A stretch of 35,522 nucleotides of DNA, from the IMG/VR virus record IMGVR_UViG_3300027968_000013, positions 1-35,522 of that record; one strand, written 5' to 3'. Positions 6,253-22,978 of this stretch are shown piece after piece. The translations under genes and the position numbers were made by a program. The stretch is from a virus. Each line of letters begins with the position of its first letter. The stretch's first letter is position 1. The notes under the pieces were generated by a model. It made no database searches. It saw only the letters and a program-made list of their open reading frames with translations, and was not told where the DNA came from.

Positions 6253-6750
6253 TTAAGGGTCGTACTCGCGGAACGCGTCCGCAGCTACCCGCCGCAGTTC
6301 CCCGTCGCCGATCGCCTCGTCGGTGGTCGGCCCCAGGAACGGGTGCTCCGGGTACTCCCCCCGCGCCGGGAGCCGGCGGTGATACCACGACCCTGCCGAG
6401 TCAGTCCAGTGCATGACCTTCCCCGACTTCGGGGTCAGCACGCACCCGCCGAACTCCAGCAGCCTCGCATGCTCTGCCCGGTTCCCCGCGTACGCGGAAG
6501 CCCGCAGCCCCCCCGACGCCGGGGTGGAATACATGCCCCGGGCCAGGCTCCCCGACGCTGACGCGGGCGGCGCACCCGGGGCCGCCTTATGGTACGCGCC
6601 GGGAGCATGCCGGTTGCGCTGCAGCGTGTCCCGCGCGGTCCGCTCCGCGATGTACCGGGCCATCGCCTCAGCCGCTGCCGCCGCCCCCAGGCGGGCCCTG
6701 GCCTCGACCTGCAGCCACTGGCGGATGTTCTCCTCCGGGGTGACGCTCAA
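6253..6750 (-). CDS. HK97 gp10-like tail completion / head-tail joining protein
   Basis: About 165 residues from a TTG at 6750 whose bases overlap the TGA of the upstream gene (TTGA), implying coupled translation. A longer frame to 6927 exists but lies inside the upstream gene. The body reads VTPEENIRQWLQVEARARLG, then a helical Ala/Arg region, then AEHARLLEFGG and HPFLGPTTDEA. The latter two are the hallmarks of HK97 gp10-like proteins (a hydrophobic LEFG strand and a conserved HPFL-P near the C-terminus). This family usually lies between the connector and the tail tube; here it directly precedes the tape measure. A role in tail-head joining is inferred from the family. Confidence 0.75.
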   Translation of the reverse strand: MSVTPEENIRQWLQVEARARLGAAAAAEAMARYIAERTARDTLQRNRHAPGAYHKAAPGAPPASASGSLARGMYSTPASGGLRASAYAGNRAEHARLLEFGGCVLTPKSGKVMHWTDSAGSWYHRRLPARGEYPEHPFLGPTTDEAIGDGELRRVAADAFREYDP

Positions 6751-7238
6751 CGCGGCAGCGCCCCCCTCCGCGGCTGCGGCGGCTGCCCCGGGCGCAGCGG
6801 GGCGGCGATGGTGCCGCGGGCGGGGCGCGGGTATCCGAGGCCGACACGCCGGTACCGTCCCGCCCACTCCCCGCGCCGGGGCCCGAACCCGAACCTGGCC
6901 GCCGGCTGCCCGTGGTTGAACCACCACACCCGCCTGCCGAGGGCGAGAAGCTCAGCCGCCTCCGCCCACACCCCCCGTGACACCCAGCCCCCGAGATGAT
7001 CCAGGAACACCGCGCAGTCCGCGCGGCGCCTCACCGCCGGCCACAGCGCCTGCCATTCCGGGTTGGACCGGTACAGGTCGGCGGCACACCACACGGTCAC
7101 CGGGTAGCCGGCGAGGCCGGGGAACGGGTACTCGCGGGCTGCTTCCAGCACGGGGCTGCGGTACAGGGTCATCGGGGACATCAGGTACAGGACCGGCAGC
7201 GACGAGGGAAGCGCGGGACGGCAGTAAGCGGGGAGCAT
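6747..7238 (-). CDS. Nucleoside 2-deoxyribosyltransferase-like (DUF4406-like) protein
   Basis: 163 residues from an ATG at 7238, two bases after the stop of the glycosyltransferase gene. It opens with a beta strand and loop, PVLYLMSPMTLYRSP, comparable to the YLAGPM start of nucleoside 2-deoxyribosyltransferase/DUF4406 folds. RADCAVFLDHLGGWVSRGVWAEAAELLALGRRVWWF corresponds in pieces to the aD-x-VV-x-L ... W-x-x-SRG-x-x-E-x-x-A-x-x-x-GkpV block, with a plausible catalytic Glu in the WAEAAEL segment. The last 35 residues are Arg/Pro-rich and low complexity. Such proteins bind or split N-glycosidic bonds of nucleosides, but the substrate here is unknown. Placement between a glycosyltransferase and a tail protein is unusual. 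Confidence 0.5.
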   Translation of the reverse strand: MLPAYCRPALPSSLPVLYLMSPMTLYRSPVLEAAREYPFPGLAGYPVTVWCAADLYRSNPEWQALWPAVRRRADCAVFLDHLGGWVSRGVWAEAAELLALGRRVWWFNHGQPAARFGFGPRRGEWAGRYRRVGLGYPRPARGTIAAPLRPGQPPQPRRGALPR

Positions 7239-9027: not shown

Positions 9028-9122
9028 TAGCCTGGTGAAGGGAGGACGTCAAAGGTGAGCCTACGCCGGCGGCGGGGTGCTGCGAAGCCTGCGGTGACCC
9101 GGCGTGCGATGCGGCAGCACCG

Positions 9123-10530: not shown

Positions 10531-10830
10531 TCAGCCGTCCTCGCCGTCGTCTGGCATGAACACGGGGATGCCGCCGTCCGGGACAGCCGCCGGGTCGCCG
10601 GCTGGTTCTGCGGCCTCAGGACCGCCTGCGGCTGCCTCAGGCCCGGCCGCCGGCGGCGCTGTTTCCCCGGGCGCGGTGAACCCGGCCGGGAGGTCAGGCA
10701 CCAGCCGTCCCGACGCGGGTATCACGTCATAGACCCCTCCCGGTTCCGCGGCGAGGGTCGTGCCCGTGCCCCGGTCGGTGTAGTCGGGGAAAGTGACGGG
10801 CATGTGACCGGTATAGCGGGCCAGTGCCAC
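10531..10830 (-). CDS. Small acidic/Pro-rich phage protein of unknown function
   Basis: 99 residues from a GTG at 10830 with GGAGG five bases upstream. Residues 1-50 read VALARYTGHMPVTFPDYTDRGTG, LAAEPGGVYDVIPASGRLVPDLPAGF, a compact domain I associate with small proteins next to tail genes in actinophages. The second half is a Pro/Ala/Glu-rich tail ending PVFMPDDGEDG and is probably disordered. It lies between the tail terminator-like gene (beyond an RNA-like element) and the tail tube. Function unknown. Confidence 0.6.
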   Translation of the reverse strand: MALARYTGHMPVTFPDYTDRGTGTTLAAEPGGVYDVIPASGRLVPDLPAGFTAPGETAPPAAGPEAAAGGPEAAEPAGDPAAVPDGGIPVFMPDDGEDG

Positions 10831-10920
10831 AACAGCCTCCGATCAGGCGACGGCCGTGCCGCGCATGCAGGCAGACGTGACCGGTGTCCTTGCAGGCCGC
10901 AAGCCCGGTCGTTCAGGGCC

Positions 10921-11031
10921 GGGTAAGACCGGAAGGGCCCCGGAGGATTCCGGGGAGGCGCGGCCCAGTGAAACAGGAAACCCGGCCCGTGAGGGAAGGA
11001 ATCCCGGTCCTTCAGGGCCGGGAGGATGTCA
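10921..11031 (+). ncRNA. omegaRNA-like TnpB right-end element B
   Basis: Plus-strand element in a 206-base gap between minus-strand genes. It aligns with element A at 12113-12234: GTAAGACC start, CAGTGAA-CAGGAAA core, then two hairpins and GGAGGATGTCA. Stem 1 is CC..CCC-GTGA-GGG..GG (10982-10999). Stem 2 is CCCGGTCC-TTCA-GGGCCGGG (11003-11022, one G-U pair). Read as protein, one frame gives VRPEGPRR...VKQE...GIPVLQGREDV, the C-terminal tail typical of TnpB-coding ends. The sequence after GATGTCA (from 11032) would be the guide; it overlaps the stop codon of the convergent gene. An earlier TTCA-like motif (10910-10922) may be a left-end remnant. No tnpB remains here. Expression is not shown. 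Confidence 0.6.
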
Positions 11032-11036
11032 GCGAA

Positions 11037-11552
11037 CTAGGCGTTGATGATTTCCCAGACGCTGCACTGAATCAAAGAATCGTACCTTAGCCACCGCTCA
11101 TCCTCGAGCGCCTCGATGCCGGTCCTGTACGTCATCGTCTCGCCCACGTTGTACACGGTGCTCGTCAGGTTCGTCGCCGGGTCAGTCAGCTCAGCCGGGT
11201 TCGGCTGCGCCGTCCGCAGCGCCAGCATCACCGTGTCCACGATCGACGGGAACTTCGGATCCTGCTGCGTGCCGCCCCCGGCCGACGTCCACGTGATGTA
11301 AATGTCGAACTGGTGCAGCAGCCCCTTCGTCCCCGACGCGGTGCCCGCCCCCGTGTTGCGGGGGATCGTGCCGCCTAGTTCCCCGGAGCGGTTCTCCCGG
11401 CCGTCCGACGGCCAGATGTAGATGGCGGGAACCCTCGCCCTGACACGCGGGTCCGGGGGGGTGATGTACGCCTTCGCCGCGGGGATGCCGTAGGGAAGCT
11501 CCAGATTGTCAAGGAGGCCGCGGAGAAAACCCTGGATGGTGACGATAGGCAA
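11037..11552 (-). CDS. Tail terminator / neck protein
   Basis: 171 residues from a TTG at 11552 preceded by GGGAGG at about 8 bases. It begins IVTIQGFLRGLLDNLELPYG and continues with AYITPPDPRVRARVPAIYIWPSDG, HQFDIYITW, SIVDTVMLALRTAQ and ALEDERWLRYDSLIQCSVWEIINA. The mixed alpha/beta pattern, with a long helix followed by strands, plus its place between the connector and the tail tube, fits the gpU-like tail terminator family that caps the tube at the neck. The family assignment is by pattern and position, not by a diagnostic motif. Its stop codon lies four bases from the convergent RNA-like element. Confidence 0.65.
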   Translation of the reverse strand: MPIVTIQGFLRGLLDNLELPYGIPAAKAYITPPDPRVRARVPAIYIWPSDGRENRSGELGGTIPRNTGAGTASGTKGLLHQFDIYITWTSAGGGTQQDPKFPSIVDTVMLALRTAQPNPAELTDPATNLTSTVYNVGETMTYRTGIEALEDERWLRYDSLIQCSVWEIINA

Positions 11553-11907: not shown

Positions 11908-12028
11908 AGGCCGCCTCCTTATGCGATTGCCACCTCACCAGAGTTCTGGCGCGGAGACCCCCGCCTTCAGGCGGGGAGGAAGCGCCTCCCTCCCTTCTCT
12001 AGATCGTTAACTGATCTTTTGCTAGAAT

Positions 12029-12112
12029 ATGGAATGCGCCTGCGGCGCAACCCATGACCGCGACGTGAACGCGGCGAAGAACATCTCGGCCGCCGGGCTG
12101 GCGGACAAGTAA
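12029..12112 (+). pseudogene. tnpB: tnpB C-terminal fragment
   Basis: An ATG at 12029 opens a 27-codon frame, MECACGATHDRDVNAAKNIS then AAGLADK and TAA. The C-x-C-G ... HDRDVNAAKNI string is the end of the zinc finger and the RuvC-III motif of TnpB (catalytic Asp in HDRD, conserved N-A-A-x-N). Everything upstream, including RuvC-I, RuvC-II and the helical domains, is absent, so no nuclease can be made. Past the stop the same frame still reads CGAGVRPQRRPP...VKQE...GIPSLQGGEDVN, the usual TnpB tail. Confidence 0.85.
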
Positions 12113-12234
12113 AACGCCTGTGGAGCTGGTGTAAGACCTCAACGGAGACCTCCGAGCGGGCAACTGGCAGTGAAGCAGGAAGACCAACCCGTGAGGGTTG
12201 GAATCCCCTCCCTTCAGGGAGGGGAGGATGTCAA
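12113..12234 (+). ncRNA. omegaRNA-like TnpB right-end element A
   Basis: After the tnpB stop comes GGTGTAAGACC, the CAGTGAAGCAGGAA core, and two strong hairpins: CCAACCC-GTGA-GGGTTGG (12184-12201, perfect with a GNRA loop) and CCCCTCCC-TTCA-GGGAGGGG (12205-12224, perfect). It ends AGGATGTCAA, the standard scaffold end before the guide in TnpB-associated RNAs. The guide would start at 12235 (TGTGCTCACCAG...). Element B shows the same layout with compensatory stem changes. The scaffold looks intact although the nuclease gene is gone; transcription is not demonstrated. Confidence 0.65.
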
Positions 12235-12281
12235 TGTGCTCACCAGTTCTCCCGCCAGTCCCCGGGGCTGGTGACTGTCCG

Positions 12282-22000: not shown

Positions 22001-22978
22001 GAACTGCGGGTCCACGATCTGCTGGTCATGGTCCACGGAGCCGTCGGTTGCGCGGCCGTAGACCATGAGGTCGCCGTCCGGCGTGCTTTCGACCTTCTCG
22101 ATGCCGAACGAGTAGAAGACATCGGCCTTCGTCAGCTCGCCGGAATCAGTGAGGGTAGCGGCCACACGGCTCCTTACTGTGTCAACGGCATGCCAAGCTG
22201 CCGGACGGCCAAAGTTGGCGGTATGGGTGGGGGGGTGCAGGAAGAGATAGCTGCCGGCGGATAACGCGGCCCCGCTGCCCTGATCCCTCCCGCTGCCTGG
22301 CGGCAGCGGGAACTCGGCCAGCAGCCGCGACCTCGCCGCGTACCTCGGGGGCCGCTCCCACAGGGGAAGCACGTAACCCCAGCTTGACAGGACCGAGTCG
22401 TAGCGGAGGCGGACCATCACCCCGGCGGCCTCGCAGGCGTTCAGGGCATCGGCGACATCGGCGAGGAGGGCGGCGGCCTTGCGCTGCATCTCCGGCTGGG
22501 GGGCGCGGGCCGCTGCCGGGAGCGCTGAGATGACAGCTTTGACGGCGCGCTTGCCGGAGGGCTTGCGCTTGCGGCGGCGTGCGGTCATGCTCACCTGCCC
22601 GGGGGAATCACCTGCGGGTAACTGCTTCGCCGCTTTCAGCTTCTCCCACTCCCTGACCGCGGCGGCAGCGGCGGCCCGGACCTCCGGGTGGACGCGGCCC
22701 TTCCCGGAAGCCCAGCGTTTCACGGCCCCTACTGCCAGCCGCACCGCTTCCTGCTCCGAGTGCCCGTTGCGTTCCAGGGCCTTCGCGATGTTCTCGATGT
22801 AATCGGGCAGGTGCTCAACCGGATGCTTGCGATGCCACAGCGGAGCCGGCCCCAGGGCGGTGTGAGTGGAGGCAAGTTCCGGGGTCTTCGCGGATTTCTG
22901 CATCACACTCGCCAATCCCCGTCCTTCAGGGCCGGGATCCCCGCCCCGGACGGCGGGGCCTGCGCCGCGCCACGTCAC
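19043..22978 (-). CDS. Prohead maturation protease fused to scaffold-like regions
   Basis: 1311 residues from a GTG at 22978 that overlaps the portal stop (GTGA). An ATG at 22903 is an alternative. Residues about 50-120 form a helical N-terminal domain (AVGAVKRWASGKGRVHPEVR). Residues about 285-430 match the HK97-type S78 prohead protease: VRVQHN (His about 345), LRAYSVG (Ser about 390), VVEISLVDRPAN (Glu about 416). Residues about 555-620 match the DUF6582-type segment (DIDTAARRRLAKEGKALSDG, LIARRAKELG). The remainder is Pro/Ala/Lys-rich, with a duplicated helical motif near 1080-1150 (VDEARSRLG / IGEARAQLG) and a C-terminal helix, consistent with scaffold. It cleaves scaffold and capsid N-termini during maturation. 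The size is far above the usual 200-600 residues. Confidence 0.85.
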   Translation of the reverse strand: MTWRGAGPAVRGGDPGPEGRGLASVMQKSAKTPELASTHTALGPAPLWHRKHPVEHLPDYIENIAKALERNGHSEQEAVRLAVGAVKRWASGKGRVHPEVRAAAAAAVREWEKLKAAKQLPAGDSPGQVSMTARRRKRKPSGKRAVKAVISALPAAARAPQPEMQRKAAALLADVADALNACEAAGVMVRLRYDSVLSSWGYVLPLWERPPRYAARSRLLAEFPLPPGSGRDQGSGAALSAGSYLFLHPPTHTANFGRPAAWHAVDTVRSRVAATLTDSGELTKADVFYSFGIEKVESTPDGDLMVYGRATDGSVDHDQQIVDPQFSSKSIRDWLQSGGNVRVQHNPQRDPAGVGLEVSTDAEGATWVKSLIVEPVAKKLVSKGALRAYSVGIARPTIVRDAVAKGGRITDGQVVEISLVDRPANARCGIQLVAKSADGTPEYVGKVFGADDAIAKALNEPEITKDGGVTKKAADLPGPAGPVACGGGTFSMPRVQKSGEDLSVTFTPNDMARLLQHKFVQKHYDDLARQAAAETRHDDGEAALKAIADAEALVTKRDIDTAARRRLAKEGKALSDGSYPIENTGDLHNAAVLARSGHGDVAAARRLIARRAKELGVPNPLKDGKGKKDKSASAEGESVATPDVTKKPEDSGGGENAGQGKAAGALEEAAPAGAGASRKKARDGKKARKKARDGKKLPPWLRGGDPQDGMDSTPDGGHAEKCRTDPAAAAGVTASPMQPAPVSDLQESTATAAMKAGPTPASASGAEGEHMDPVPAHREPDGAEVEAFEKDSGLQDGDSEKPGRLEVPTLKSSPEVAALLRFRQAAIDPELGRLHDLTCPAFHPEDVAKCHPFADFRTVIDEAAFHRKAVEAAAGQSPDRAKAMQQAWQAARILREADPAVLNDFRLGAWKAFRDANPGPGTAPVPGSISPGKFNRPLITEGHEASSPGHAGPAAPPPAASGAPDAHGFARPPLSAGHQSPSPSFMKASWEYPAETGRPVQLRYEVTEKERARQALAAMHESLGRQFPLVCPIDLDRPVPQPQARPVPAAAGVSKSAAPDPAAAAAVFKAEPERDGQFADADLLKARRKLRKKLGRKVLSGRMTVDEARSRLGRDAAQKSRRALQRKLAVKVSKGEISIGEARAQLGLTPLAGPAAAQKAAGIPFVNQYGEPARSASVRTVAPAAPAAAGPEVIKAAVTEALAPVAAELAATKALLAEQRESYDKKLAEQQRVIDAIADQPDPSTAAFSGLAFNPVHKQRRPAGVLSQAEVAERTQQMMIRHLTDRYNSASDPAEREAAYATLCKMRGISQ
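20891..20950. repeat. 30-bp in-frame tandem duplication
   Basis: CTTCTTGCCGTCCCTGGCCT plus ten more bases at 20891-20920 is repeated at 20921-20950. On the minus strand it encodes two copies of a Lys/Arg-rich unit (KKARDG type) in the disordered middle of the protease/scaffold protein. The 30-base period keeps the frame. Confidence 0.8.
22917..22936 (+). repeat. Degenerate TTCA-loop hairpin, IS605-end-like
   Basis: CCCCGTCC-TTCA-GGGCCGGG, preceded by AAT, closely matches stem 2 of element B (AATCCCGGTCCTTCAGGGCC) with one mismatched pair, but lacks the GGAGGATGTCA tail. It lies within the first 25 codons of the protease gene if GTG 22978 is used, or between portal and protease if ATG 22903 is used. 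It may be a relic of the same element family or a chance GC-rich hairpin. Confidence 0.4.

Follow-up and report, generated by a model that had tools for sequence, protein, structure and literature searches.

PATEs of Haloquadratum (PMC3119063) are short elements that lack a transposase and consist of fused IS605-type ends. In the haloarchaea, these arose by repeat-mediated deletion of the core of IS605-type elements, which left the near-terminal palindromes as direct repeats (PMC3119063). Element B has the same make-up and probably the same origin. It lies in a 35,522-bp linear IMG/VR record (the window, i.e. the whole stretch of DNA analysed) that contains phage late genes, mostly on the - strand, and comes from a soil actinophage. 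However, unlike the PATEs, B is a single copy in an actinophage, its right end (RE) includes most of the scaffold of a TnpB guide RNA, and it is only a candidate for mobility. A Rhodococcus/Streptomyces clade of elements with tnpA and tnpB (L027, L028, L033 and L188-L191) and the element of PIS 136 (L196) resemble B in the context of the left-end (LE) palindrome, the TGAC|C flank, helices P1 to P4 and the RE, but in B both genes are missing, TCAA has lost its final A and P0 its 5' strand. The IS605 orfB element of Thermobifida phage P1312 (KT021004) is the parent type of a second element in the window, element A, which it matches at 80-81 % at both ends; its left-end type differs from that of B. 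The TldR-gRNA cassettes of prophages (PMC13418256) also represent a transposon-derived guide RNA in a phage. In those cassettes, however, a TnpB-like protein that binds the guide is retained and the target of the guide is known; B has neither of these, nor a linked nuclease-dead TnpB-like protein with a conserved guide.

End homology identifies B (10882-11032, + strand, 151 bp) as an internally deleted IS200/IS605 element in which the LE is fused to the RE, without tnpA or tnpB. One neighbour is a 99-aa gene (10531-10830, - strand), and the other is a 171-aa gene (11037-11552, - strand) that is convergent to B, which sits downstream of its stop codon. The product of the latter, previously labelled a tail terminator, has no match in Pfam or PHROG. 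As its predicted structure (pLDDT 81) resembles phage connector and tail terminator proteins, namely the Bxb1 connector, T5 p142 and lambda gpU (TM-scores of about 0.3-0.5), the label is plausible. An alignment of the major tail protein searched against genome contigs found no relatives.

The element had originally been predicted to span 10841-11052, but 10841-10881 lie outside it. The left boundary was set at TGAC|C (10881/10882) because the sequences of two Rhodococcus copies part company to the left of GTGACCGC and because NTGAC precedes the left ends of L028, L029, L092, L095, L098 and L172. Comparison with other left ends marks the TGAC flank (10878-10881, + strand) as the insertion-target (TAM-like) motif of B. 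The 46 bp to the left of the LE (10836-10881) are without counterpart in most relatives. The right boundary is at 11032.

All features of B described here are on the + strand. The LE near-terminal palindrome, CCCGGTCG-TTCA-GGGCCGGG (10904-10923), had not been recorded previously. It matches the left ends of full elements and is a direct repeat of the RE palindrome, CCCGGTCC-TTCA-GGGCCGGG (11003-11022, also P4), at 21 of 23 positions. B therefore has near-terminal palindromes related to those of full elements at both ends, together with the TGAC|C left flank and GAAT ahead of the RE palindrome. The probable deletion junction, GGGCCGGGT/AAGACC (10916-10925), and its putative microhomology were placed by aligning the ends of L027, L028 and L171, and the junction supplies the 5' arm of P1 (10916-10921), which pairs at 6/6 positions with the 3' arm CGGCCC (10961-10966). 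P2 (10938-10955) and P3 (CCGGCCC-GTGA-GGGAAGG, 10982-10999) follow. The presumed guide (11033-11052) is flanking phage DNA and, as predicted, overlaps the stop codon of the convergent gene (11037-11039). The predicted residual C-terminal TnpB frame, VKQE...GIPVLQGREDV (VKQETRPVREGIPVLQGREDVS, 10968-11090), is also present, and the TnpB motif is absent from it.

The LE of B is 93 % identical over 30 nt to a stretch of the Rhodococcus plasmid L033 that lies about 1.7 kb from the right end of the element there, and it also matches L027 and Streptomyces L028 (75 % over 53 nt). The RE matches the right ends of full elements. In members of this clade from Streptomyces, Mycobacterium and Saccharomonospora phage PIS 136, tnpA adjoins tnpB and is divergent from it. 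No TnpA domain was found in the record, and the only match to a TnpB domain is a fragment in element A, so there is no intact TnpB. With its ends fused, no transposase gene and a putative repeat at the junction, B is very probably what remains, after a PATE-like core deletion, of an IS200/IS605-family element with tnpA and tnpB. As scans of genome contigs gave no nearly identical full parent, we infer the deletion from matches of 75-93 %. Searches of viral and genome contigs with DNA patterns for the omegaRNA core and the LE/RE junction found none, though such strict patterns are no proof of absence.

Initially, an intact element like those of Rhodococcus and Streptomyces would have inserted 3' of TGAC in the space behind the tail terminator gene. 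Its core, with tnpA and tnpB, would then have been lost between short repeats, GGGCCGGGT of the LE palindrome and the start of the omegaRNA region, fusing LE to RE either before or after arrival in the phage, and the relic would have drifted since. The 3' arm of the LE palindrome, GGGCCGGGT, resembles the 5' arm of P1 in the parent omegaRNA (e.g. GGGGCCGT in L027), and a deletion between GGGCCGGGT and this P1-arm repeat would leave a P1 5' arm shifted by one base, which is what B shows. P1 of B was considered as a selected helix and rejected; its 5' arm is identical in sequence to the arm of the LE palindrome from which it derives, so the pairing is more likely fortuitous.

Element A (11935-12234, + strand) is an internally deleted element of the P1312 type and includes an LE palindrome (11959-11976), a TnpB remnant (12029-12113) and an omegaRNA region (12113-12234), all on the + strand. 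Its left end is 80 % and its TnpB tail plus right end 81 % identical to the P1312 element, and the TnpB fragment passes the PF07282 cut-off. The P1312 TnpB is ~46 % identical to a B-type TnpB. A and B thus belong to two different IS605 types, A with P1312-like ends and B of the Rhodococcus/Streptomyces type with tnpA and tnpB.

As originally predicted, B is the right-end (omegaRNA) element of a TnpB transposon and has diverged from A. The blocks said to be shared with A (CAGTGAA-CAGGAAA, CCCGTGAGGG, the TTCA-loop hairpin and GGAGGATGTCA) are all present within 10965-11031 (+ strand). The two elements are 82 % identical over 66 nt, and the likeness is not random, as a covariance model built without either of them scores B at 53.8 bits (E 4e-12). 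It had further been proposed that most stem pairs differ while pairing is kept. However, the terminal hairpin, 8/8 paired in both, differs at only 3/8 pairs (C-G to G-C, T-A to G-C and C-G to T-G; two double changes and one single change). In the CCCGTGAGGG hairpin (P3), A pairs at 7/7 positions, whereas two G-A mismatches reduce B to 5/7. Pairing is therefore kept in the first hairpin and only partly in the second. Moreover, because A and B come from different IS605 types, their differences predate insertion and do not record change inside the phage. The comparison of A with B was consequently dropped as evidence of selection on its own. Selection in the phage was to be considered unsupported if the two ends came from unrelated full IS copies and, as to origin, this is essentially what was found.

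Across the transposon family, on the other hand, the stems do covary. Covariance model R1 was built from 23 full elements, leaving out A and B. In this alignment 89.8 % of cells are paired and the covariation score is 0.565, versus a shuffled mean of 0.160. None of 500 shuffles reached 0.565, and slid partners gave at most 0.173. For 67 distinct sequences the score was 0.555, a value that leans towards the model because the alignment was fitted to it. P0 is the cleanest helix, with CCUG/CAGG changing to GCUG/CAGC and GACG/CGUC and 98.5-100 % pairing in the family. The strong covariation among full elements shows that selection acts on RNA structure within the transposon family, and the expectation of covariation above background among homologues is confirmed at that level, while the A/B differences give no such evidence for this phage. 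For P4 alone, a DNA palindrome used by TnpA explains the pairing equally well; P0 to P2 lie outside the palindrome and favour RNA. The stems of B are inherited transposon features, namely the scaffold of the TnpB RNA and, for P4, also a DNA palindrome bound by TnpA, and B most likely has no specific role in the phage at present.

Among related phages, 21 that have the terminator gene contain about 6-20 bp, or other, unrelated DNA, at the junction occupied by B. Searching 56 related loci (446 kb) with R1 gave no significant hit (best E 0.22) and a B-like element is absent from them. In the whole records of 45 relatives, R1 hits adjoining TnpB were found at other places in three, and TnpB-domain matches over the cut-off in four. 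TnpB elements thus commonly invade these phages, and B is lineage-specific.

The junction after the tail terminator gene is an insertion hotspot. L038, L039 and L045 have 180-480 bp of extra DNA at this place, with small opposite-strand genes in those read. In mycobacteriophage Job42 (L031, 1343-2563), a TnpB gene is convergent to the tape measure gene and ends exactly at its 3' end, a position similar to that of B. L198 and L199 (G006 and G005) contain full TnpB genes of other clades, and the one in L198 adjoins a late gene homologous to window positions 6253-6927. The omegaRNA model also hit L026 (1028-1144, - strand) and L110 (1655-1803), either on the opposite strand or immediately after a full element, which hints at tandem or TnpB-less copies elsewhere. 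The window also includes two solo TTCA-loop palindromes on the + strand, one between late genes (904-923; R1 scores 30.9 bits at 842-928) and one, with a single mismatch, at a late-gene junction (22917-22936). They resemble IS605 ends and are possibly terminal-only remnants. A candidate third right end at 9041-9051 (GGAGGACGTCA) was rejected, as it has no omegaRNA-like context and scores 7.6 bits with R1.

B could instead resemble an active PATE or MITE, a non-autonomous mini-element that TnpA still moves in trans. It retains TGAC|C, GAAT and the two near-terminal palindromes, in a layout comparable to IS608 (PMC5934647). However, the right cleavage site of B (11029-11032) is TCAG, not the TCAA found in 49 of 49 sampled full elements; TCAA is also the right cleavage sequence of IS608 (PMC5934647). 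In addition, no second copy turned up in the window or among the 56 related loci, and a search of viral contigs with the exact junction pattern gave none either. The altered site is one base and could be a sequencing error. Continued mobility is very improbable.

A second alternative is that B is a TnpB-less, stand-alone guide RNA used in trans by a TnpB of the host or of another phage, which would cut empty sites and so protect the insertion or attack rivals. TnpB is known to work by such donor-site cutting (PMC8612924). B still keeps P1, P2 and about 108 nt of scaffold. The guide RNA of AmaTnpB is processed to a 106-nt scaffold (PMC10278001), a length that B still has, so the truncated RNA might still be usable. 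However, P0 lost its 5' strand together with the core, and R1 marks its pairs as broken. P4 is predicted not to form: its pair probability in the predicted ensemble is 0.001, whereas A and 11 full elements all reach 0.98 or more. In B the P3 arm CCCGGCCC is predicted to take up the P4 arm GGGCCGGG instead; this rests on single-sequence folding and is approximate. Judged against the family consensus structure, the right-end scaffold is therefore retained in A and not in B. The 3' gene end in which the guide lies is fairly conserved. In relatives the best match to the guide is 18/20 (L038), but GCGGC, not TGAC, stands beside that match and all others have at least 4 mismatches; TGAC adjoins a good match in none of the relatives. 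The proposed comparison of the guide region with related phages thus gave no sign, at the level of sequence, that B is aimed at them. There is also no intact TnpB in the record, and no sigma-70-like promoter was found, which is a weak test for actinobacteria. Use of B as a guide RNA in trans is very improbable. With one strand of P0, the most conserved helix, lost, P4 predicted to misfold and the cleavage site altered, B looks to be under relaxed constraint.

Element A, which scores 88.4 bits with the covariance model in an unfiltered scan of the window, is a better candidate for a stand-alone guide RNA. At 12113-12254 all helices, TCAA and the guide region are kept, and there is no TnpB. More broadly, protein-less guide RNAs from IS605 right ends (B or, more plausibly, A with its intact scaffold) might be carried by the phage and used with the TnpB of a host or co-infecting phage to guard late-gene junctions, or to cut rivals that lack the insertion, but we consider this extremely unlikely. 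Equally remote is a role of the hairpins within the late operon, where they would have been kept as terminator-like or intercistronic RNA elements: four perfect TTCA-loop hairpins (counted as TTCA/TTTA-type, 7 bp or more) lie at late-gene junctions in the 35.5-kb window, against two in 446 kb of relatives, but a terminator-type T run is missing, relatives do without the hairpins, and two of the four are ends of A and one an end of B.

B is essentially ordinary in kind, a PATE-like IS605 relic that is decaying and retains part of an omegaRNA. It illustrates that the LE/RE fusion of a TnpB transposon is easily misread as a selected phage RNA, and that the two can be separated by finding the left end, checking empty sites and seeing whether the most conserved helix of the family survives. 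As no Rfam family matched the window at gathering cut-offs, the covarying P0-P4 consensus of this omegaRNA clade may be of use for annotating TnpB guide RNAs of actinobacteria and actinophages. If A is expressed, the use of TnpB-less guide RNAs in trans becomes testable.
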